64,000 bases of DNA from Lachnospiraceae bacterium (GTDB lineage: Bacteria > Bacillota > Clostridia > Lachnospirales > Lachnospiraceae): the NCBI GenBank assembly GCA_017619295.1, contig JAFZSQ010000084.1, positions 22,683 through 86,682 of the forward strand, read 5' to 3'. Both the position numbers and the translations under genes were made by a program. Shown piece by piece: positions 1,419 through 9,402 of the stretch. Each line of letters opens with the position of its first letter. Within the stretch, counting starts at the first letter, position 1. A model generated the notes under the pieces. That model was not told where the DNA came from and did no database searches. It worked only from the letters and a program-made list of their open reading frames with translations.

Positions 1419-3149
1419 TTAAGTTCTCTGCTTGAGCTTATTCCTGCCCCAAAGCATGAATACAATAGTTTCAAGTATTATCATAAGGATTATGCCTTTA
1501 ATCACATCAAATCTCATTACCCTCACAACTCTAAAGCCCGATAACAGATAACATATGCCAAGGCCGGCTAATGCCGGAATCAGATGAAATAGAATGTTCC
1601 CCTTCTTTTCAGAAATTAATCGGCCGGCTTCCATAAAGCCCAAAACATTTATCACGAGTAGCAAAAGTGCCAATGCAAAATCAAGCAAATCCTGTTCAAA
1701 ATCATTCTTAGCGGTTCTATAGACTGAATCAGCCCTGATAAAACCTTTTATTCCAGCTATTTCATTTAAGTAATCATCAGCAGGCTGTTCTTCATCATAT
1801 TGAAAAAACAGGGCTCTTGACGATGTGAAGAGAATATAGCTTGGATGAAAATTATCTGTGTATATAACAGCTACCGCATCAGCAATAGAGTTGTTTTCAT
1901 TCCTGCGAACCGAGTCGTCAAACGTATAATAGCTTTGTCCATCTTTCACAGGGATTATATTTACAGACAGGGGGCCTTTATTCGGATTCCACGTCTCATT
2001 TGAAGCCTCACCGTAAACTCTTTCTCCTATCAAAAACCTGTTGAAATTTAAATAATCTGTGAACTGCTCCACCAATTGGTCTTTAAGGTGCATGTATTTT
2101 TCAGGCACAGCCAAATTTATTGTGTTTTCATCATAATCAATCTTACTCTCAACTGGTTCACCATCTAAAGCCTGGATTGGGTTTATCTTATAGAAATTAG
2201 GAGAGACGGTTATATGCGTGTTGCCTCTTTCATGGATCAACCCATCTTGCTCACTATCAAGACCCATTAAGTCATTGCATGCAACATCATTAGAGTCCAT
2301 GAAAAAGCCCTTTCGTTTAAAGGTTAATTCTTTATATGCCTTCTCCGCCAACCCCCGAATCTCGATTTCTTTCTCCAAGCTTTGATTTTGACCTATATTA
2401 TTCATTACTACCCTATATACATTTGAATAGTTTCTGCAATGCAATAAGTTCTTTCCATCTACGAATACCCTCTGCGTAACAAAAGCAGCTCTTGAGATTG
2501 ATGCCGTACATAAGAAGATTAGTAGTATTATTACCGGAATACAGCAGATATACTTACCGTGACTCTTAAATCCTCCATTATTATTTTTACCAATACATTT
2601 AAGTTTTGATACACCAAAAACGACTGCTATAGACAACAGCAAAAAAGCTACACTGTAAACCTTTCCCCAATCAAGCCATCGATCTGATAGTAATAGTGAA
2701 AAAGGGGTACAAAATATTCTCTTCTCAACTTTAATTCCTTTATCAACAAGTGCTGCCTCCATAGCATTGATCTCTTCATCAGAAGTAAGTGAAACAAAGT
2801 ATAGGCTCGAATATCCCCAATGCTCAGCCTCGGTAAGTTCATCAACAGGTATGGTTCTAAAAGGAGACATTGCAATTCTCTCAGAATCAATCTCTTTCAA
2901 TAATTTTGATGATACATGCACCGCCTTATAGCCATCCTGGCCCTCATCAAGTTTAACTATATTAACGTCTTCTCTTTCAGCCCAATCTAACGTTGATGCA
3001 AATGCTTCTTCATTCTCAAATTCAATATCAAGCGTAACACAATCACCCAGCACCTAATTGTAAAAGGACAGATTAAATGTCAAAAAAGCACCTATGAAGT
3101 GAATCATTATTAACCCTAAAATCAAAAGTACTCTAATTGTATTTTTCAT
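1419..3149 (-). pseudogene. DUF1430-like bacteriocin-associated membrane protein, interrupted by an in-frame TAG
   Basis: The natural start is the ATG at 3149, preceded by GAGGG, which gives a hydrophobic N-terminal segment (MKNTIRVLLILGLIMI...). A TAG at 3056-3054 stops it after 31 codons. The same frame then runs open for 544 codons from GTG 3053, which has no Shine-Dalgarno of its own. The rest shows a ~120-residue extracytoplasmic domain, two helices, a ~270-residue extracytoplasmic domain containing NTINLAVPEKYMHLKDQ, and three C-terminal helices. This layout resembles the DUF1430/TIGR01654 putative bacteriocin-immunity proteins found beside lactococcin-972-type systems. That match is from memory of the family and moderate. 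It is driven by copy 1 of the 65-bp promoter repeat. The stop may be a real mutation, a readthrough site or a sequence error. Confidence 0.6.
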
Positions 3150-3199
3150 GTATATTTCCCTCTGAAACATTATCACTCAATCTTGCCTGATTTAATTCA

Positions 3200-3284
3200 A
3201 ACGTAACTTAGGTATATCGAAAAAGTCAATTGCACGTTGTGCAAATTGGGGGTTTTTGATTTGCACGTTATGCAAATTGCCGTA
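3200..3284 (-). promoter_or_regulatory. 65-bp promoter/operator repeat, copy 1 (before the DUF1430-like gene)
   Basis: The conserved block is 3220-3284. It holds two dyads, TTGCACGTTGTGCAA at 3230-3244 and TTGCACGTTATGCAA at 3261-3275, centred 31 bp apart (about three helical turns). Reading on the minus strand, the proximal dyad runs directly into a -35 sequence TTGACT (3229-3224), followed 18 bp later by a poor -10, TACGTT (3205-3200). A strong -35, a weak -10 and a dyad immediately upstream suggest activator control. The local XRE proteins are the obvious candidates, which is inference. Confidence 0.75.
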
Positions 3285-3313
3285 AAATCGGGTCTTCTAT
3301 AAATGCATGCAAT

Positions 3314-3344
3314 AAAAAACCAGAAGATATAATCTTCTGGTTTT
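3314..3344 (-). terminator. Terminator after XRE regulator 1
   Basis: The arms AAAACCAGAAGAT and its complement (3316-3328 and 3332-3344) pair perfectly around a 3-nt loop, and the minus-strand transcript continues into a T run. It closes the gene ending at 3351. Confidence 0.85.
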
Positions 3345-3350
3345 CATTCA

Positions 3351-3938
3351 CTATTTTCCAAATTTTTCTATCGTTATCTCGTTAATTAACATTGTAATGT
3401 CATTTAATGATTCTGTATCATCACCAGGCTCTGCATCCTTGGGAATTATAACAACTTCTATTGCACCCAGACCCTCAGTGTTCAAAAATCTCTTAAACAT
3501 TCTGTGTGAATACACTTCGGCTGACTCGTCACTATAAACAAACACAGGCTTGGCATATATCAAAAGTGTATCTCCAAATGCCCCCTCAATGACTTCCGGC
3601 TCCCCTACCATTCTATATTGGTTTTTCATGATAAAAACGGTTATAAGGGCAGTCGCACAGATGCATATGGCAATGATACATACCACTGCTATTGTTTTTT
3701 TATGCTTGTTTTCTTCTTTAGCCTTAACCACCGGCTCTTCTGGCATCAGCTCAGATTCAGGAATCTGGAGTTCTCTGCATATTAATCTTATATTGTCTAT
3801 CGATACAGGTACCTTACCTGTTTCCCATCTGCTTACTGTACTGGTATCTACATGAATTATTTCAGCAAATTCAGTCTGAGTATATCCCCTCTTTAGCCGA
3901 ATATCTCTAATTCTTTTTCCTACTTCTTTCCCTTCCAT
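3351..3938 (-). CDS. Membrane-anchored XRE-family regulator 1
   Basis: 195 aa. Start chosen at ATG 3938 because GTGAGG lies just upstream; a longer in-frame start at 4025 would run through the terminator hairpin. Residues ~5-60 are an XRE helix-turn-helix (RIRDIRLKRGYTQTEFAEII, then STVSRWETGKVPV). One transmembrane helix follows at ~82-104, then an ~85-residue extracytoplasmic domain with ESAEVY and GAIEVV motifs. The regulator at 5463-6026 has the same layout and shares YR, GxT, ESAxxY and AIE positions in that outer domain, so the two are paralogues. A DNA-binding domain tethered to an outside domain suggests a one-component envelope sensor. It has its own terminator and a GTAGAGTCTAC dyad (3970-3980) in its probable promoter. 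The ligand is unknown. Confidence 0.85.
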   Translation of the reverse strand: MEGKEVGKRIRDIRLKRGYTQTEFAEIIHVDTSTVSRWETGKVPVSIDNIRLICRELQIPESELMPEEPVVKAKEENKHKKTIAVVCIIAICICATALITVFIMKNQYRMVGEPEVIEGAFGDTLLIYAKPVFVYSDESAEVYSHRMFKRFLNTEGLGAIEVVIIPKDAEPGDDTESLNDITMLINEITIEKFGK

Positions 3939-4000
3939 TTTCCTCACCCTATGTTTACGCCTTATAATAGTAGAGTCTACCATGTTTTCAGACATAATAA

Positions 4001-4027
4001 AAGTGCTTTGCAAGAAGCAAAGCACTT
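4001..4027 (-). terminator. Terminator after the matrixin operon
   Basis: AAGTGCTTTGC and GCAAAGCACTT (4001-4011, 4017-4027) form a perfect 11-bp stem with a 5-nt loop; the minus transcript continues TTATTAT. It lies 75 bp after the stop of the 4103-4732 gene and just before the promoter region of XRE regulator 1. Confidence 0.8.
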
Positions 4028-4102
4028 ATTATAAGCATTATCGAAAGAGTAAAAATAATAAGAATTTTCTCCTTCATATTTATTTAATTAACATTGCAAC
4101 TT

Positions 4103-4732
4103 TTACTCATCAATTTCATATTTGGACTTGCTTCTGGGTCTGTCCGTTTCAATCTGATGGTTGTATCCATCCAAAACCTTTTTGTAGGTGCTGTCTGCAG
4201 CTTTTACCTTTTTCTTGCCATTATTAACTTCATTGGCTAGCTTCAGGCAAGAGTTTGGTCCAGCCGACAGCAAAGAGCCATCTTCTTGAGCATAAGCATA
4301 AAAGATATATGTTTTTCCAATCTCAGGTAAAACATCTCTCTCAAAAATAACGGTTATTTTACCATCTTCTGAAATACCCCCAGCCTTTTGAATAATAATA
4401 TCATCTTCGGTTTGGAGTTTACCTTTTATGTTTTCTATTACGCGTATAGAGTAGTCCGTATATGGCGTCGTTATTCTTTTCGCACCCGTCACCGTTTCTA
4501 TCATAACTGGGTTTTTATATATGTATCCTTCTATTCCAGTAACTTCCGCCGAAAAAACATAATCTGCATCTCCGGCTAAAGCTCGGAAATCATCCACGTT
4601 AATAGAGTAGGATCCTTCGATATATGAAATCTGGTTTTCTATACTACTGGTTTTATTTATCAACACCAGAAAAAAACCGATTAGAATCATACTTGCCAAA
4701 ACCATGACACCTATTAATAAACTTTTTCTCAT
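4103..4732 (-). CDS. Membrane-anchored extracytoplasmic protein of unknown function
   Basis: 209 aa, not assigned to a family with confidence. One N-terminal transmembrane helix (~5-25) anchors a ~180-residue outside domain that looks beta-rich, with the runs DYVFSAEVTGIEGYIY, YSIRVIENIKGKL and KTYIFYAYAQEDG. The C-terminal ~35 residues are strongly charged. It starts 12 nt after the metalloprotease stop, so the two are surely co-transcribed from copy 2 of the promoter repeat, and a terminator follows. The pairing suggests a substrate, inhibitor or surface receptor for the protease, but nothing in the sequence proves this. Confidence 0.75.
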   Translation of the reverse strand: MRKSLLIGVMVLASMILIGFFLVLINKTSSIENQISYIEGSYSINVDDFRALAGDADYVFSAEVTGIEGYIYKNPVMIETVTGAKRITTPYTDYSIRVIENIKGKLQTEDDIIIQKAGGISEDGKITVIFERDVLPEIGKTYIFYAYAQEDGSLLSAGPNSCLKLANEVNNGKKKVKAADSTYKKVLDGYNHQIETDRPRSKSKYEIDE

Positions 4733-4744
4733 TGAATCCCCCCC

Positions 4745-5236
4745 TTATCTGTTATAGCTTGCATCGTATGATGCTTTATCATTTTCTGATAGCACGGTAT
4801 GATACGTCAACTCAGCATACATTATATCCCCAAACTGGTTATGTGCCAGCCCTAAGGCATGCCCTAGTTCATGTGTGCAGGTATGCTGTTTTTCCGCTGA
4901 ACTATATCTACTCATATTATATTTATTGAAACAAATCATTCCTGCCTTGTCTGTATATCCCGATACCGAGTTTTGTTCATAATAATCTGAAATGGCGACG
5001 TCTTCTATTGTATTCCAAGAATCCTGCCTTATAACTCCGGGTTTATAATCATTCCAGGTGTCAACTCCTGACTGAAAGTAACTAAGATATTCTGATGTTC
5101 CATCCCAATCCAAGTGTTTTCCTGAGTCTAATAGGGACCAACTCATTATAGCTACGTTTGATGCATGAACACGCATTGAGCACGCCAACAGCGCACCCCC
5201 CAACAAGGTGCATAAAACTTTCATGTGGTTTTTCAT
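4745..5236 (-). CDS. Secreted matrixin-type zinc metalloprotease
   Basis: 163 aa with GGAGGG before ATG 5236. Residues 1-25 form a signal peptide ending near HAS. The zinc site is HELGHALGLAH at 122-132, the full HExxHxxGxxH of metzincins, and a Met-turn candidate follows in DIMYAEL (Met139). At about 138 mature residues it is a bare catalytic domain with no propeptide or haemopexin repeat, as in small bacterial M10/M57-like enzymes. It is first in a two-gene unit under promoter repeat copy 2, so it should be expressed together with the ABC transporter and the DUF1430-like gene. It probably cuts a secreted peptide or surface protein outside the cell; the target is unknown. Confidence 0.88.
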   Translation of the reverse strand: MKNHMKVLCTLLGGALLACSMRVHASNVAIMSWSLLDSGKHLDWDGTSEYLSYFQSGVDTWNDYKPGVIRQDSWNTIEDVAISDYYEQNSVSGYTDKAGMICFNKYNMSRYSSAEKQHTCTHELGHALGLAHNQFGDIMYAELTYHTVLSENDKASYDASYNR

Positions 5237-5270
5237 ACTAACCCTCCGTGAAAAATGTTAATAGTTTCTG

Positions 5271-5282
5271 ATCACATGTGAT
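5271..5282 (-). promoter_or_regulatory. ATCACATGTGAT palindrome in the matrixin 5' leader
   Basis: A perfect 12-bp palindrome downstream of the promoter, with the neighbouring bases CTTTGACATTA also kept. An identical palindrome with the same flank occurs at 9300-9311 in the ABC operon leader but not at promoter copy 1. It is a candidate operator for a second regulator. Confidence 0.55.
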
Positions 5283-5288
5283 GCTTTG

Positions 5289-5373
5289 ACATTAACCTCA
5301 TTAATCTCAAAAAGTCAATTGCACGTTGTGCAATTTGGCTTTTTTATCATTGCAATATTTGCAATATGCCGTA
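5289..5373 (-). promoter_or_regulatory. 65-bp promoter/operator repeat, copy 2 (before matrixin)
   Basis: The conserved block is 5309-5373. The dyads are TTGCACGTTGTGCAA (5319-5333) and TTGCAATATTTGCAA (5350-5364), centres 31 bp apart. On the minus strand TTGACT (5318-5313) adjoins the proximal dyad and TAATGT (5294-5289) sits 18 bp further on. Layout and length are the same as copies 1 and 3. Confidence 0.75.
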
Positions 5374-5391
5374 TCTGTGCCTTTCTAGGTC

Positions 5392-5431
5392 AAAAAAAAG
5401 GATTCCAAGCTTATTTATAGGCCAAGAATCC
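5392..5431 (-). terminator. Probable terminator after XRE regulator 2
   Basis: GGATTC and GAATCC (5400-5405, 5426-5431) pair, and the minus transcript then runs into eight T residues (5399-5392). The stem is short, so confidence is moderate. It would end the long ABC transporter-XRE2 operon just before promoter copy 2. Confidence 0.6.
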
Positions 5432-5462
5432 ATTTATCAATATTTCGGTAAAAATTGGGCAA

Positions 5463-6026
5463 TCAGAAAATAAAGTAGAAACATTCATGTGCGCCATTAA
5501 TGTCATTGATTTCATCGCCGGAAAGGAAAAAATAGATTTCTATAGCATCTATATCATCCCTGTCCATATAGCTTCCCTTGATTTTCTTTGCATATTCATC
5601 TGCGCTCTCGTGTTCAAATTCAAAAGTTGGCATAAGCACAACTTTATATGTTACTGTTTGTCCATATGTGTCTGGATGTGCGTCAGACACATCCGCTACT
5701 CTATAGCGTGGGAAAAAGAGCCATAATAAAGCTACAATAATCGCTATGACAACAAGGGGTATCAATAATTTCAAGATTCGGCCACCCTTTTTGTTTATCT
5801 CAGCGGTGGCTTCTTTTCCAAAAATCAGTTCTTTTTGGGTAACATTAAATTCTTGACAAATAATCTCAATCGACTCCATAGGTGGAGCAGTTTTCCCTGT
5901 CTCCCATCTGCATAAAGTTGAAGCAACAACATTAATTCTTTCCGCGAAATCAGCCTGCGACAATCCCATTTTCTTGCGCAGGCTGGCTATATTTTTCCCT
6001 ATTTCAATCTTCTCTCTGTTTTCCAT
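5463..6026 (-). CDS. Membrane-anchored XRE-family regulator 2
   Basis: 187 aa. Start at ATG 6026 with GGGAGGG upstream; the frame is open further upstream but without a better start. Residues ~10-65 hold the XRE helix-turn-helix (NIASLRKKMGLSQADFAERI, then STLCRWETGKTAP), ~92-112 a transmembrane helix, and the rest an outside domain with ESADEY and DAIEIYFF matching regulator 1. It is the last gene of the ABC operon, 63 nt after the conceptual end of the small secreted protein, so its expression probably follows promoter copy 3. That would make a feedback loop if it binds the 65-bp repeats. Confidence 0.85.
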   Translation of the reverse strand: MENREKIEIGKNIASLRKKMGLSQADFAERINVVASTLCRWETGKTAPPMESIEIICQEFNVTQKELIFGKEATAEINKKGGRILKLLIPLVVIAIIVALLWLFFPRYRVADVSDAHPDTYGQTVTYKVVLMPTFEFEHESADEYAKKIKGSYMDRDDIDAIEIYFFLSGDEINDINGAHECFYFIF

Positions 6027-6138
6027 CTTTCCCTCCCCACTACCATTTGGTATGATTTTACCACGTAGTTCAAGGGAAATCAAAGGAATTTACTGGGCGC
6101 TTACTTCTCCACTATACGTAGCATATGTATATCCATTA

Positions 6139-6459
6139 CTATAGTATGCACTTGTAAGTTTTTATCGTCCCAACGTAGCGCACTCCGTTATCTGTCACAT
6201 CGTAATTATAGTATTTGTTAGGTTTAACATTTCCCGCAAAGGTTAGTTCAATCGTAACCACTTTGCTACTACTTGAAAGAAGTATACTAGCTGTTTTGAT
6301 TTCTCTAAAAGCAACTATTTCCCCAAGTTTTATGTTTTTATCCGCTGTCACTGTTTTAGGCGTGGCTGCCTTTGAGCAGATACTAGTTCCTTCAGTGCAC
6401 AAGCAAATTGCCATTCCCATAATTATTCCTAATAAAAATTTTAAACATTTTCTTTTCAT
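6139..6459 (-). CDS. Small secreted protein, apparently frameshifted near its C-terminus
   Basis: 106 aa as read. Start at ATG 6459 with GGAGG five bases upstream. Residues ~1-30 are a signal peptide ending SICSKAA; the mature part is short, Thr/Ser/Tyr-rich and probably beta-sheet. The frame ends abruptly after TIKTYKCIL. Removing one A from the AAAAA run at 6160-6164 would continue it as TIKLTSAYYSNGYTYATYSG and on to a TAA at 6092-6090, 64 nt before XRE regulator 2. The continuation is protein-like and fills the otherwise empty gap, so the intact product was probably about 120 aa. It follows four ABC genes and is the best candidate for their cargo or for a secreted peptide. No family is recognised. 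Confidence 0.65.
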   Translation of the reverse strand: MKRKCLKFLLGIIMGMAICLCTEGTSICSKAATPKTVTADKNIKLGEIVAFREIKTASILLSSSSKVVTIELTFAGNVKPNKYYNYDVTDNGVRYVGTIKTYKCIL

Positions 6460-6510
6460 CTTTTCCTCCAACCTTCATGTTTAATTGATCCATCTAATAG
6501 TATTCTTTTT

Positions 6511-7032
6511 TCATTCCATTCCCAAATACCCTTCTAGTTTCATATATATCAGCACATAAGAAACACCGGCAAACACAGGGCAGTTCATTATCACAATACA
6601 CATACCCGGCATATCCTTCAACAGCATCCCCTCTATAAACCTTATTACAAGCATCATCATGAACCCAATTTCCGCCTTATCTAATAGAAGGGCTATAATT
6701 AGTGAAATGGATGCACCGTTAATCGCAACAAAGCACTCTCTCAAAACAATATACAAAAATACTTGTGTCGAAGCCCCCTCCAAACCGAAAAGCAATGCTA
6801 AAATTGCCGATACAAATCCGAAATACCCTAGTGAAATGACAAAAGCCTTCACCCAGTCATGAAAGAATACTTTTAATAGTTTTTGTGTACGCACAAAAAT
6901 ATAGACTACAATTCGGCTCTTATACCTAAGAAGTACCAAATAACTTACAATCCAAGGGACAAGTCGAAGCATATGATAATTAAGCCAGTCAGGTCCAATT
7001 CTGCTAAAATATGAATCCCAAATTTCAATCAT
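6511..7032 (-). CDS. Integral membrane protein of the ABC operon
   Basis: 173 aa with about four to five hydrophobic helices and short loops; no recognised catalytic motif. It overlaps the ATPase gene by 4 nt, so translation is coupled and it is probably a third membrane subunit or an accessory to the transporter. The ~60-residue amphipathic N-terminus (LRLVPWIVSYLVLLRYKSR) precedes the main helices. No family name can be given. Confidence 0.7.
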   Translation of the reverse strand: MIEIWDSYFSRIGPDWLNYHMLRLVPWIVSYLVLLRYKSRIVVYIFVRTQKLLKVFFHDWVKAFVISLGYFGFVSAILALLFGLEGASTQVFLYIVLRECFVAINGASISLIIALLLDKAEIGFMMMLVIRFIEGMLLKDMPGMCIVIMNCPVFAGVSYVLIYMKLEGYLGME

Positions 7033-7673
7033 CTATATACCACCAAGCCACGGTTCTCAACTCGATATACTTTAGTACATAATCTTTCTATTTCTTCAGC
7101 ATGATGCGATGTCATAATAATGCTTACATCTTCTTTTTCGTTCAAATCCTTAAACATTTCTGTGAAATCAGATAACGTTTCCGTATCAATTGCATTAAAG
7201 GGTTCATCAAGAATAAGCAGCTTGGGATTCTCCATAATTGCCTGTGCAATCGCAAGTCTCTGTTTCATACCCAATGAATACTTGCCAAATTTAACTCTTG
7301 ATTCTGGATCAAGCCCAACTCTTCTCATTACCTTCTTGACACCTTCTCTGTTTATTTTCTTTCTTATGTTTGCAAGAATCATAAGATTTTTAAAGCCCGT
7401 CTCTCCCGGCAAAAATCCAGCACAGTCAAGTATCACTCCAATGTCCTTGGGAAAGTCTCCACTGGCCAATTCTTCACCTAGTACGTTCACGGTCCCATTA
7501 TTCGGAGCAATCAACCCGCAAATCATCTTTAGGAATACGCTCTTTCCAGCGCCATTTTCGCCTATTACTCCGACCACCTCTCCTTGATTCATAGTGAATC
7601 CCATGTTTTCAAACAAAATGTTATTATTATATTTTTTAGACAAACCAGTAATCTCAATCACTTTCTTATCCAT
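7029..7673 (-). CDS. ABC transporter ATP-binding protein (ABC-2 exporter type)
   Basis: 214 aa nucleotide-binding subunit. Walker A GENGAGKS is at ~39-46, the signature is YSLGMKQRLAIAQAI, Walker B LLILDEPFNAID, and the switch histidine lies in MTSHHAEEI, so the catalytic residues are complete. The short length and the YSLGMKQRL signature are typical of ABC-2 exporters for drugs, lantibiotics or bacteriocins (BcrA/LanF-like). It is encoded among three small membrane proteins, consistent with an exporter or immunity pump at the membrane. Confidence 0.9.
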   Translation of the reverse strand: MDKKVIEITGLSKKYNNNILFENMGFTMNQGEVVGVIGENGAGKSVFLKMICGLIAPNNGTVNVLGEELASGDFPKDIGVILDCAGFLPGETGFKNLMILANIRKKINREGVKKVMRRVGLDPESRVKFGKYSLGMKQRLAIAQAIMENPKLLILDEPFNAIDTETLSDFTEMFKDLNEKEDVSIIMTSHHAEEIERLCTKVYRVENRGLVVYR

Positions 7674-7685
7674 ATTGATTCTCCA

Positions 7686-8423
7686 TCAAACAAATCTTTT
7701 ACTCGTTACACTCAAAAAAGACCTTTTATATCTCAGCATATGAACTAACAAAGCAAGAATCAAGGCAATTAACATCCAATACCCTAAATAGACTCTATAG
7801 TCCGGTGTTGCTTGGCCACCATTCAAATACCTCACATGCCCCCAGGGTGTCCATGCTGTTATTGCATCCCAATGAAGTTTAGTTGCAACGAAGTCAAAAA
7901 AAATGACTGCTATTGTACATAGAACAGCTATTTTTCTGCTTGAAATCAAGCAACCCGCAACCTCTCTAAAAATATGAACAGCTACCATAAGGATTATTTC
8001 ATTGATAATCTGACAAATGATTATGTCAATCAAATCACCATCCAATTCACCCGAAAAAAGTATCTCGTTTGCGGGAATAAAATAATAACTCACCATCACT
8101 GATGCAATCACATATTCAATCACTACTAGTATAGGCCAAACAAGTCTTGGCATAATTCTCGAAATAGCATACTCTGTCACATTCTTACGCCGAATCAGAT
8201 CCACATATCGATACAGTGTATCATCTTTCGCATATGTCAGGACAATCAGGAAAAGTGGATTAATAATAAGACAAATAAATACATTATTGAGCGAGTTCAT
8301 CACAATATGGCAAATATCTGCTCTGGGATTATACAACACAAACGAGTATTCACTAACATATGCTACCAATAATTCCACCGCAAATGTAATCAAAATCTTT
8401 TGGCCCCAACTAGTTTTCACCAT
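7686..8423 (-). CDS. ABC-2-type membrane subunit
   Basis: 245 aa with about six transmembrane helices and no soluble domain, the shape of an ABC-2 permease. It overlaps the preceding permease gene by 14 nt and ends 12 nt before the ATPase, so it belongs to the same transporter. The sequence is not similar enough to the 8410-9186 protein to call them duplicates by eye. Confidence 0.75.
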   Translation of the reverse strand: MVKTSWGQKILITFAVELLVAYVSEYSFVLYNPRADICHIVMNSLNNVFICLIINPLFLIVLTYAKDDTLYRYVDLIRRKNVTEYAISRIMPRLVWPILVVIEYVIASVMVSYYFIPANEILFSGELDGDLIDIIICQIINEIILMVAVHIFREVAGCLISSRKIAVLCTIAVIFFDFVATKLHWDAITAWTPWGHVRYLNGGQATPDYRVYLGYWMLIALILALLVHMLRYKRSFLSVTSKRFV

Positions 8424-9186
8424 GGTATTTATCTCCTACCCAAAAACAAATCAGTCCAATTAATATAAGCACTATATCATATAACCATATTCCACTTTTA
8501 CCTATGGCTGTATTTACGTATACCTCTGGTACAAACAAGTTTAAAGCATTCAATCCTCTTGCAAATCTATCTATAACCGCTGCGGAAAACAAGCAAAAGC
8601 AAAACGGTGCCAACATTCCAAGGTACTTGTTACGTATAACTGATATTAATCCCAATCCAAATACCGCAAATACTGCCCCCTGAATCCCAGCGTTAAAGCA
8701 ATAAAACAATCCATACAAAAAGGGACTTCCACTATATAGTCTCTCCAAGAAGGATGGGGGCGGCATTATTGACATAGTAGATACTTGTCCACCAAACACA
8801 AAAAAGCAAATTATTAGCCAAAGAAGGCAAGGAATGAACAATGACGCAAAAGTTACTAAGGCTGCAGTAAAAGCTTTTAATGATCTGTATTCCTTGTTTC
8901 CGACTTTTAGTTTTAATAGATTCTCATATCCGCTATCTCTCTCTTTACGATATGACGTTGAATAAGCCAGCACTGATGTGATTGGGAAAAATACAGCAAG
9001 GATACATGTCACTCCCATTCCATAACCTACCAGGAACTTATCTATATACGAACCTCCCCAATCAAAATCATAAATAAGTTTGTCATATATGATTTCGCTA
9101 CCGCCAAATATTAGCATTGCAAAATTGATTAACGTAACAGCAATTGCCGACCTGCTTATACAAGCTCTTTTTAATTCTATACTCAT
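8410..9186 (-). CDS. ABC-2-type membrane subunit, first gene of the operon
   Basis: 258 aa with about six helices. The loop YSTSYRKERDSGYENLLKLK, between helices 2 and 3, matches the cytoplasmic coupling loop of ABC-2 permeases (R-E-R-G-E/Y pattern). It opens the unit permease-permease-ATPase-membrane protein-secreted protein-XRE2, transcribed from promoter repeat copy 3 through a ~130-nt leader that contains a palindrome and a strong stem-loop. Confidence 0.75.
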   Translation of the reverse strand: MSIELKRACISRSAIAVTLINFAMLIFGGSEIIYDKLIYDFDWGGSYIDKFLVGYGMGVTCILAVFFPITSVLAYSTSYRKERDSGYENLLKLKVGNKEYRSLKAFTAALVTFASLFIPCLLWLIICFFVFGGQVSTMSIMPPPSFLERLYSGSPFLYGLFYCFNAGIQGAVFAVFGLGLISVIRNKYLGMLAPFCFCLFSAAVIDRFARGLNALNLFVPEVYVNTAIGKSGIWLYDIVLILIGLICFWVGDKYHGEN

Positions 9187-9232
9187 GGTTGTAATGCAAC
9201 TCCCGTTCCTTTCAACAATATCATCTCAATAT

Positions 9233-9258
9233 ATGCAGGGGATGAAAATCCCCTGCAT
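9233..9258 (-). other. Stem-loop in the ABC operon leader
   Basis: ATGCAGGGGAT and ATCCCCTGCAT (9233-9243, 9248-9258) form a perfect 11-bp stem with a 4-nt loop inside the untranslated leader, ~47 nt before the first start codon. No T run follows, so it is not a plain terminator. It may protect the RNA or take part in post-transcriptional control. Confidence 0.6.
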
Positions 9259-9299
9259 TCTCTCCTCCGATAATCTTCTGAAATTGTTTTCTGCTACTT

Positions 9300-9311
9300 A
9301 TCACATGTGAT
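9300..9311 (-). promoter_or_regulatory. ATCACATGTGAT palindrome in the ABC operon leader
   Basis: The second exact copy of the 12-bp palindrome found at 5271-5282, again followed by CTTTGACATTA. Its presence at two of the three repeat promoters suggests an extra control layer shared by the protease and transporter units. Confidence 0.55.
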
Positions 9312-9317
9312 ACTTTG

Positions 9318-9402
9318 ACATTAGTCTCTGAACTAATAAAAAGTCAATTGCACATTTTGCAATATGGCAAAAACCGCATTGCAAATTTTGCAATGCGGCG
9401 TA
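9318..9402 (-). promoter_or_regulatory. 65-bp promoter/operator repeat, copy 3 (before the ABC operon)
   Basis: The conserved block is 9338-9402. The dyads are TTGCACATTTTGCAA (9348-9362) and TTGCAAATTTTGCAA (9379-9393), centres again 31 bp apart; TTGACT is at 9347-9342 and TAATGT at 9323-9318 (18-bp spacer). The distal dyad is enlarged to a 25-bp near-perfect palindrome (9375-9399) followed on the minus strand by TTTTT, so it could also terminate transcription from the gene ending at 9413. Confidence 0.75.

Follow-up and report, generated by a model that had tools for sequence, protein, structure and literature searches.

The question raised by this locus is what brings a secreted matrixin, an exporter-like ABC unit, a small secreted protein and a DUF1430-like gene together behind one type of promoter. 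The locus lies in a 64-kb window of a Lachnospiraceae bacterium (64,000 nucleotides of contig JAFZSQ010000084.1, assembly GCA_017619295.1); all coordinates are positions in this window unless a locus handle precedes them, and every feature of the locus is on the minus strand. A first-pass annotation had read it as a self-contained, activator-driven module without a named counterpart. The answer regarded here as probable, if well short of certain, is that of an Mtz-Tim system, i.e. a secreted metzincin (Mtz) and a TIMP-like partner (Tim), under a dedicated double-operator promoter and membrane-anchored XRE activators, together with an exporter, a small protein, a DUF1430-like protein and an unlinked lipoprotein-like gene.

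A double-dyad promoter at four places in the genome

The three blocks (3220-3284, 5309-5373 and 9338-9402, minus strand) were found where the first-pass annotation had placed them. Each holds two TTGCA-N5-TGCAA dyads set 31 bp apart from start to start, the inner of which abuts a TTGACT followed by TTTT, with an 18-bp spacer to a TAnnnT -10 box (TACGTT in block 1, TAATGT in blocks 2 and 3).

3261-3275, minus strand: block 1 outer dyad, exact TTGCAN5TGCAA
3230-3244, minus strand: block 1 inner dyad, exact, touching TTGACT at 3224-3229
3200-3229, minus strand: block 1 -35 TTGACT, 18-bp spacer and TACGTT
5350-5364, minus strand: block 2 outer dyad, exact
5319-5333, minus strand: block 2 inner dyad, exact, touching TTGACT at 5313-5318
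5289-5318, minus strand: block 2 -35 TTGACT, 18-bp spacer and TAATGT
5271-5282, minus strand: block 2 start-site palindrome ATCACATGTGAT
9379-9393, minus strand: block 3 outer dyad, within a longer hairpin at 9374-9398
9348-9362, minus strand: block 3 inner dyad, exact, touching TTGACT at 9342-9347
9318-9347, minus strand: block 3 -35 TTGACT, 18-bp spacer and TAATGT
9300-9311, minus strand: block 3 start-site palindrome ATCACATGTGAT

Exact TTGCANNNNNTGCAA dyads occur six times in the window, all within the blocks (at 3230, 3261, 5319, 5350, 9348 and 9379), and dyads with at most one mismatch occur 14 times against an expectation of 3.85 +/- 2.01 (shuffle maximum 9), a count reached by 0 of 100 shuffles. 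The build first described, with dyads 31 bp apart, an abutting TTGACT, an 18-bp spacer and a poor -10 box, is borne out by coordinates and shuffles alike; the block length of 65 bp is correct too, and is accounted for by the spacing of the dyads together with an edge that is partly shared.

Throughout the assembly of the same genome (2.75 Mb in 99 contigs, 95.8% complete), AAAAGTCAATTGCAN5TGCAA is present without mismatch at four places, namely the three blocks and one on contig C29, with none in the control and a fifth place at three mismatches; the exact double dyad is likewise found at four places. The many scattered copies that would have spoken against a regulon were thus not seen in this genome-wide scan. 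The C29 promoter carries three dyads, spaced 31 and 32 bp, before a lipoprotein-like gene (frame 11885-12889 of L007, start codon not settled) that had no family match in profile searches. Because this fourth promoter lies elsewhere in the genome, the gene set is not self-contained, and that part of the first-pass annotation does not hold. At up to one mismatch the double dyad was absent from all 298 other family genomes drawn, and at up to two mismatches from the sole other genome of the genus.

Alignment of the four promoters, with offsets counted from the first T of TTGACT, revealed 80-100% pairwise likeness from -20 to +9, covering the inner dyad and TTGACTTTTT. By comparison, the ten bases between the dyads (-30 to -21) are 10-60% alike and those from +10 to +19 are 20-40% alike. 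The TA...T at the -10 place is retained in 4/4 promoters, and all four -10 boxes are poor. Blocks 2 and 3 have in common TAATGTCAAAG(C/T)ATCACATGTGAT, in which the 12-bp palindrome would correspond to roughly +1 to +12 of the transcript, an element unmentioned by the first-pass annotation; the C29 block retains AAGTATCA. These blocks might also be recent copies of one promoter with no dedicated regulator, and blocks 2 and 3 are indeed 80-90% alike from +20 to +49, outside the dyads. However, half-sites and -35 are identical across the promoters whereas the spacers have diverged, so the promoters are more than a copied stretch, and the same layout stands beside an XRE relative in another genus (genome G206, below). 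Plain copying is accordingly held to be very unlikely.

Another possibility is that the dyads are terminators or hairpins ending the upstream genes rather than operators. Each block follows a same-strand gene, a terminator scan flags the inner dyads of blocks 1 and 2, and in block 3 the outer dyad forms part of a 12-pair, terminator-like hairpin (9374-9398, -17.9 kcal/mol, followed by TTTTT). The inner dyads, however, fold weakly (-5.3, -6.5 and -4.5 kcal/mol in blocks 1-3, -2.6 kcal/mol in G206), the folded stretch of block 1 is letter-identical to that of C29, and the 31-bp phasing, the fixed -10 and the start-site element would be left unexplained. The terminator explanation, extremely unlikely as a whole, was rejected for the inner dyads on account of these weak hairpins; a possible second role is retained for the outer dyad of block 3, where the hairpin may at the same time terminate transcription of the EFR1-type ferredoxin gene that lies upstream.

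Two membrane-anchored XRE regulators

The regulators are encoded between the blocks, the XRE2 gene upstream of block 2 and the XRE1 gene upstream of block 1, on the same strand and hence not divergent.

5463-6026, minus strand: XRE2, HTH_3 domain, one transmembrane segment, outer domain
3351-3938, minus strand: XRE1, HTH_3 domain, one transmembrane segment, outer domain

The two proteins score 54 and 41.3 bits for HTH_3, are 28% identical over 163 residues, and each bear one strong hydrophobic segment between the helix-turn-helix (HTH) and the outer domain (19-residue hydropathy 3.0-3.2), in agreement with their first description as paralogous and membrane-anchored. As predicted from sequence, both would follow the plan of a transmembrane regulator, with DNA-binding domain, transmembrane segment and outer domain in one chain. 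This plan is shared with regulators of the ToxR/CadC type (PMC10269533; the definition taken in part from general background), which likewise have an inner DNA-binding domain, one transmembrane segment and an outer domain; the proteins of the window differ in using an HTH_3/XRE domain, and the main text of that survey does not contain "XRE" once. Neither a membrane-anchored XRE regulator of this kind nor this promoter layout was found in the open-licence PubMed Central literature, and a defence-system library returned only general HTH and ATPase models for the locus.

Relatives of these regulators are scarce. Six further XRE matches in the same genome are all weak (expectation value, E, 1e-4 to 5e-4) and mostly confined to the HTH, no other relative of similar strength being present there, and none was found in the viral contigs or plasmids searched. 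A search of 299 family genomes with the outer domain gave a single clear relative, from G206 of another genus (E 6.6e-12), besides weak matches in five genomes (E 0.005-0.0094).

The same promoter layout in another genus

In G206 the XRE gene precedes a gene for a trypsin-like secreted protease, and the intergenic region contains, in order, an imperfect dyad, 32 bp, a perfect 13-bp dyad TTCATATTATGAA, TTGACTTTTT, a 17-bp spacer, TATGGT and then AAAGTATCACATGTGA. The layout resembles that of the window in its double dyad, its TTGACTTTTT and its start-site element ATCACATGTGA, and the centre of the inner dyad lies 8 bp before TTGACT in both. A scripted search for this geometry found a single place in the 19-kb G206 locus, dyads with at least 5/6 pairs occurring at 0.4% of positions, and recovered blocks 2, 3 and C29.

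Several patterns point to the same promoter. Without mismatch, GYATCACATGTGAY is present in blocks 2 and 3 and in the G206 promoter, and nowhere else in either genome; at one mismatch there are three further places, against 3 for the control in the window's own genome. A composite pattern run over 397 family genomes retrieved the G206 place, 3/4 of the window genome's promoters and one unrelated match in G243, which was set aside as chance: it lies in a lactate permease region (named by eye) without BLAST match to proteins of the window or of G206. The G206 operator pattern (up to three mismatches) has one exact place in that genome, the trypsin promoter, and five others with 2-3 mismatches, near the control (2). 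Kinship between the 106-residue secreted protein of the window and a 113-residue G206 protein, seen by eye, was discarded as it had no BLAST support at E < 1. A protein search and a DNA search, independent of each other, therefore meet at one locus. The absence of dyads from related loci, which would have told against the regulon, is true of the 15 matrixin loci described below and false for the sole locus with an XRE relative.

Activation or repression

If the -10 hexamer is taken to occupy -12 to -7, the centres of the inner and outer dyads lie at about -44 and about -75, three helical turns apart and on the same face of the DNA. In phage lambda, cI at PRM is an activator that contacts RNA polymerase from upstream without covering the promoter. 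Activation by the XRE proteins is favoured because a protein at the inner dyad can likewise touch RNA polymerase and leave the promoter uncovered. XRE1 and XRE2 would then be membrane-anchored one-component regulators that keep their DNA-binding domain in the cell and expose a small domain on its outer side; they most likely bind the paired dyads and recruit RNA polymerase to a promoter of good -35 and poor -10. The first-pass proposal of one shared promoter type under probable activator control is supported by conservation within the genome and by G206.

The XRE proteins could instead be repressors, as in the CI/Cro switch of Listeria, where the XRE pair is mutually repressing and controls mtz-tim (PMC8235301, as described there); the promoters would be turned on by their loss, with the start-site palindrome as operator. 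The presence of ATCACATGTGA(T) at about +1 in blocks 2, 3 and G206 fits such a role. Against it, the inner dyad is wholly upstream of the -35 with a second dyad in phase 31 bp further out, an activator layout as in the lambda example; all four -10 boxes are poor; and the XRE genes are not divergent and their products membrane-anchored. Repression is considered unlikely.

The metzincin and its TIMP-like partner

Block 2 precedes mtz and then tim, followed by a terminator-like hairpin.

4745-5236, minus strand: Mtz, secreted matrixin with HELGHALGLAH
4103-4732, minus strand: Tim, membrane-anchored protein of TIMP/NTR fold (predicted model)
4001-4027, minus strand: terminator-like hairpin after tim

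Mtz has a hydrophobic N-terminus, the HExxHxxGxxH motif as HELGHALGLAH and a Met-turn DIMY. It matches the Matrixin family at 24.4 bits (cut-off 24), and structure comparison revealed a metzincin fold with karilysin (4in9) as best match. Tannerella forsythia karilysin is a matrixin with a dedicated inhibitor, potempin A, and PDB entry 8b2q, whose title names the two, is also among the fold matches. The likeness is that of a bacterial matrixin with a dedicated inhibitor, whereas the Tim profile had no match better than E 0.19 among sequences of solved structures; the absence of potempin A from the 50 Foldseek matches listed for Tim carries no weight either way.

The predicted model of Tim, built on a 16-row alignment (A1) in which one row (L007:7730-8290, BLAST E 1.1) was placed by eye, has an NTR/OB fold like that of TIMP/NTR domains. 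Since the gene after the matrixin is predicted to fold in this way, the core of the locus is taken as a metzincin–TIMP-like pair. Window Tim has an N-terminal hydrophobic segment and no lipobox Cys, and so is not classed as a lipoprotein. A hallmark of the TIMP family is a free N-terminal Cys with six disulphides; window Tim has one Cys and lacks this hallmark. The aforementioned row is a lipoprotein that looks Tim-like by eye, stands without a matrixin on the contig of the fourth promoter, and at E 1.1 against window Tim has no supported kinship.

In Listeria monocytogenes, the pair of Mtz, a secreted metzincin, and Tim, a lipoprotein of TIMP-like type, has been described beside two XRE regulators by Boichis et al. 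2021 (PMC8235301), where Mtz is reported to cleave Tim, the freed part is thought to raise the sensitivity of cells to lysis, Tim without a lipobox is reported in other Firmicutes, and a phage origin of mtz-tim is suggested. Window Mtz shares 50.7% identity, across 82% of the protein, with a Listeria sequence that bears the annotation "matrixin family metalloprotease", and Tim shares 39.8% identity, across 79%, with OR848502, an unverified record of a Listeria phage, in comparisons that did not include LMRG_00713/00714 themselves. Because of the Listeria precedent and the matrixin identity, the core pair counts as a member of a described kind, and the statement that no named system fits is not sustained, as far as the published account goes; the first-pass annotation was right about a secreted protease and an exporter-like ABC unit, but overlooked the TIMP-like gene after the matrixin. 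Alike are the order of secreted metzincin and TIMP-like protein, the two XRE regulators nearby and the related matrixin. In contrast, the Listeria XRE genes as described are opposite-facing and CI/Cro-like whereas those of the window are on one strand and encode membrane-anchored proteins, Listeria Tim is a lipoprotein whereas window Tim lacks a lipobox, and here there are, in addition, promoters with double dyads, the fourth of them unlinked, as well as genes for an ABC unit and a small secreted protein.

By analogy with Listeria, secreted Mtz probably cleaves Tim and frees its TIMP-like domain, and together the two would target, from outside, the cell envelope of either the producer or its neighbours. 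OR848502 is weak evidence of phage origin because it is unverified and unannotated and has an ABC-transporter-like frame adjoining the pair. The GC (guanine plus cytosine) content of 1419-9402 is lower; no phage or mobile genes were recognised by eye near the pair in the reading frames of 1-16 kb, no integrase scan of the window having been made.

Exporter unit and DUF1430-like gene

Block 3 precedes an exporter-like unit, in which the gene for an ABC ATPase comes after those for two membrane proteins and before those for a third membrane protein and a small secreted protein; block 1 precedes the DUF1430-like gene.

8410-9186, minus strand: permease-like membrane protein with a sub-threshold match to DUF2705 and 25% identity to an ABC-2 type protein of G118
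7686-8423, minus strand: second membrane protein of the presumed exporter, no family match
7029-7673, minus strand: ABC ATPase, nearest NCBIfam model TIGR03740 (lantibiotic protection), 138.7 bits, cut-off 309.75
6511-7032, minus strand: membrane protein of 173 residues, no family match
6139-6459, minus strand: small secreted protein of 106 residues, no family at curated cut-off
3054-3149, minus strand: DUF1430-like gene, first piece, running to an in-frame TAG
1419-3053, minus strand: DUF1430-like gene, remainder in the same frame, weak TIGR01654 match

The DUF1430-like protein reaches 35.3 bits for TIGR01654 against a cut-off of 189.35, and its gene carries an in-frame TAG (3054-3056) after about 31 codons, which may reflect a pseudogene, an assembly error or a restart. 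With a sub-threshold match and an in-frame stop, its designation as a putative immunity protein finds no backing. In the reading preferred here, the transporter and the DUF1430-like protein would protect the producer.

These genes could also mark the locus as a bacteriocin cluster of the lactococcin-972 type, with the small secreted protein as bacteriocin and Mtz-Tim incidental. A DUF1430 protein and an ABC protein are found in the mediterrocin cluster of a Lachnospiraceae species, as described in PMC12345188, and such clusters resemble the window in their ABC protein and small secreted protein and, as far as the sub-threshold match goes, in their DUF1430-type protein, which has seven transmembrane segments; the weak TIGR01654 match and the lantibiotic-protection model nearest to the ABC ATPase point the same way. 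Nevertheless, a search of the ten locus proteins at E <= 1 gave no match to a lactococcin-972 peptide family, the ABC ATPase scores 95.5 bits for the lactococcin-972 exporter model TIGR03608 (cut-off 254.85), behind many other models, the DUF1430-like frame is interrupted, and the protease-inhibitor core is a pair conserved elsewhere. A bacteriocin cluster thus appears quite unlikely.

Matrixin loci elsewhere

Fifteen matrixin loci were fetched (L008-L017, L041-L043, L054 and L074). Among them, L041 duplicates L010, L014 hardly differs from L015, and L017 breaks off too soon. A Tim-like gene follows the matrixin in 13/13 other loci examined (L008-L016, L042, L043, L054 and L074), with a second matrixin in between in five (L009, L011, L012, L013 and L016) and two Tim genes in L009, L014 and L015. 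The exact dyad was absent from all 15 loci, as was TTGACTTTTT save for one reverse-strand copy inside the tim frame of L008. Since matrixin loci elsewhere lack exact dyads, the dyads follow the regulators and not the protease.

Some further observations concern the pair itself. HExxHxxGxxH is intact in 13 of the 18 matrixin proteins scanned; in all five tandem loci the first copy lacks it and the second has it intact, which suggests, as judged from the motif, that the first copy is a dead-protease partner. An FtsX-type transporter follows mtz-tim in the same five loci, and mtz-tim of L014 has both an FtsX-type transporter and a two-component system a few kb ahead of it, the near-identical L015 looking alike. 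On a viral contig (L054:5992-7113), a matrixin gene and tim (the latter 37% identical to that of the window) lie between tape-measure-like/tail-like and amidase-like frames, named by eye.

Among the 299 family genomes, matrixins were found in the window's own genome, G101, G118 and G268, and not in G206. In G118, AgrB (95.3 bits), a GHKL kinase (67.0 bits) and a response regulator (by eye) adjoin the matrixin and Tim; for phage-borne mtz-tim, agr control has been proposed (PMC8235301, as stated there). This genome also has a small secreted protein, two membrane proteins (one ABC-2, 28.9 bits) and an ABC ATPase 36% identical to that of the window, TIGR03740 being the best NCBIfam model of both.

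Weighing the evidence

A number of results weigh against an Mtz-Tim system under dedicated XRE activators. Within the genome, the outer dyads (-50 to -31) are 50-90% alike, with identical half-sites and a variable centre, the start-site palindrome is missing from two of the four promoters (block 1 and C29), and the exact-dyad scan of the window found no dyad before the XRE1 or XRE2 gene. Across genomes, 325 of the order gave one weak XRE match besides the genome itself (G531, 7.6e-4) and 368 of the phylum no relative at E <= 1e-4; because relatives are so rare, the cross-genus case is single and not a series. The half-sites differ, TTGCA in the window and TTCA in G206, so that the link between XRE proteins and operators rests on position and not on letters. 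The geometry search misses block 1, whose dyad centres are imperfect, and the composite pattern has a background of one unrelated match plus two reversed-control matches in 397 genomes. As to the proteins, Foldseek TM-scores for Tim are a modest 0.34-0.38 of the query for the first 8 matches, with only 4 at E <= 0.001 among the matches listed, and the DUF1430-like gene may be broken.

Taken together, the metzincin–TIMP-like pair near XRE genes, DUF1430 and ABC neighbours in bacteriocin clusters, and transmembrane regulators as a class are already known, and the control layer of membrane-anchored XREs and double-dyad promoters appears to be new, as does the gene set. A more speculative and rather doubtful extension is that XRE regulator and composite promoter form a portable control cassette for unrelated secreted proteases (a matrixin here, a trypsin-like one in G206), whose outer domain would sense the state of a surface protease and its inhibitor, e.g. 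freed Tim, and so tie synthesis of protease, inhibitor and transporter to events outside the cell.

The mtz-tim pair travels with differing controls, namely CI/Cro in Listeria as published, adjoining agr genes in G118, and membrane-anchored XRE proteins here. The locus offers a bacterial counterpart of the animal matrix metalloproteinase–TIMP pair under an apparent dedicated membrane-to-DNA switch with a readable operator, and its four native promoters make sensing, activation and protease–inhibitor action testable.

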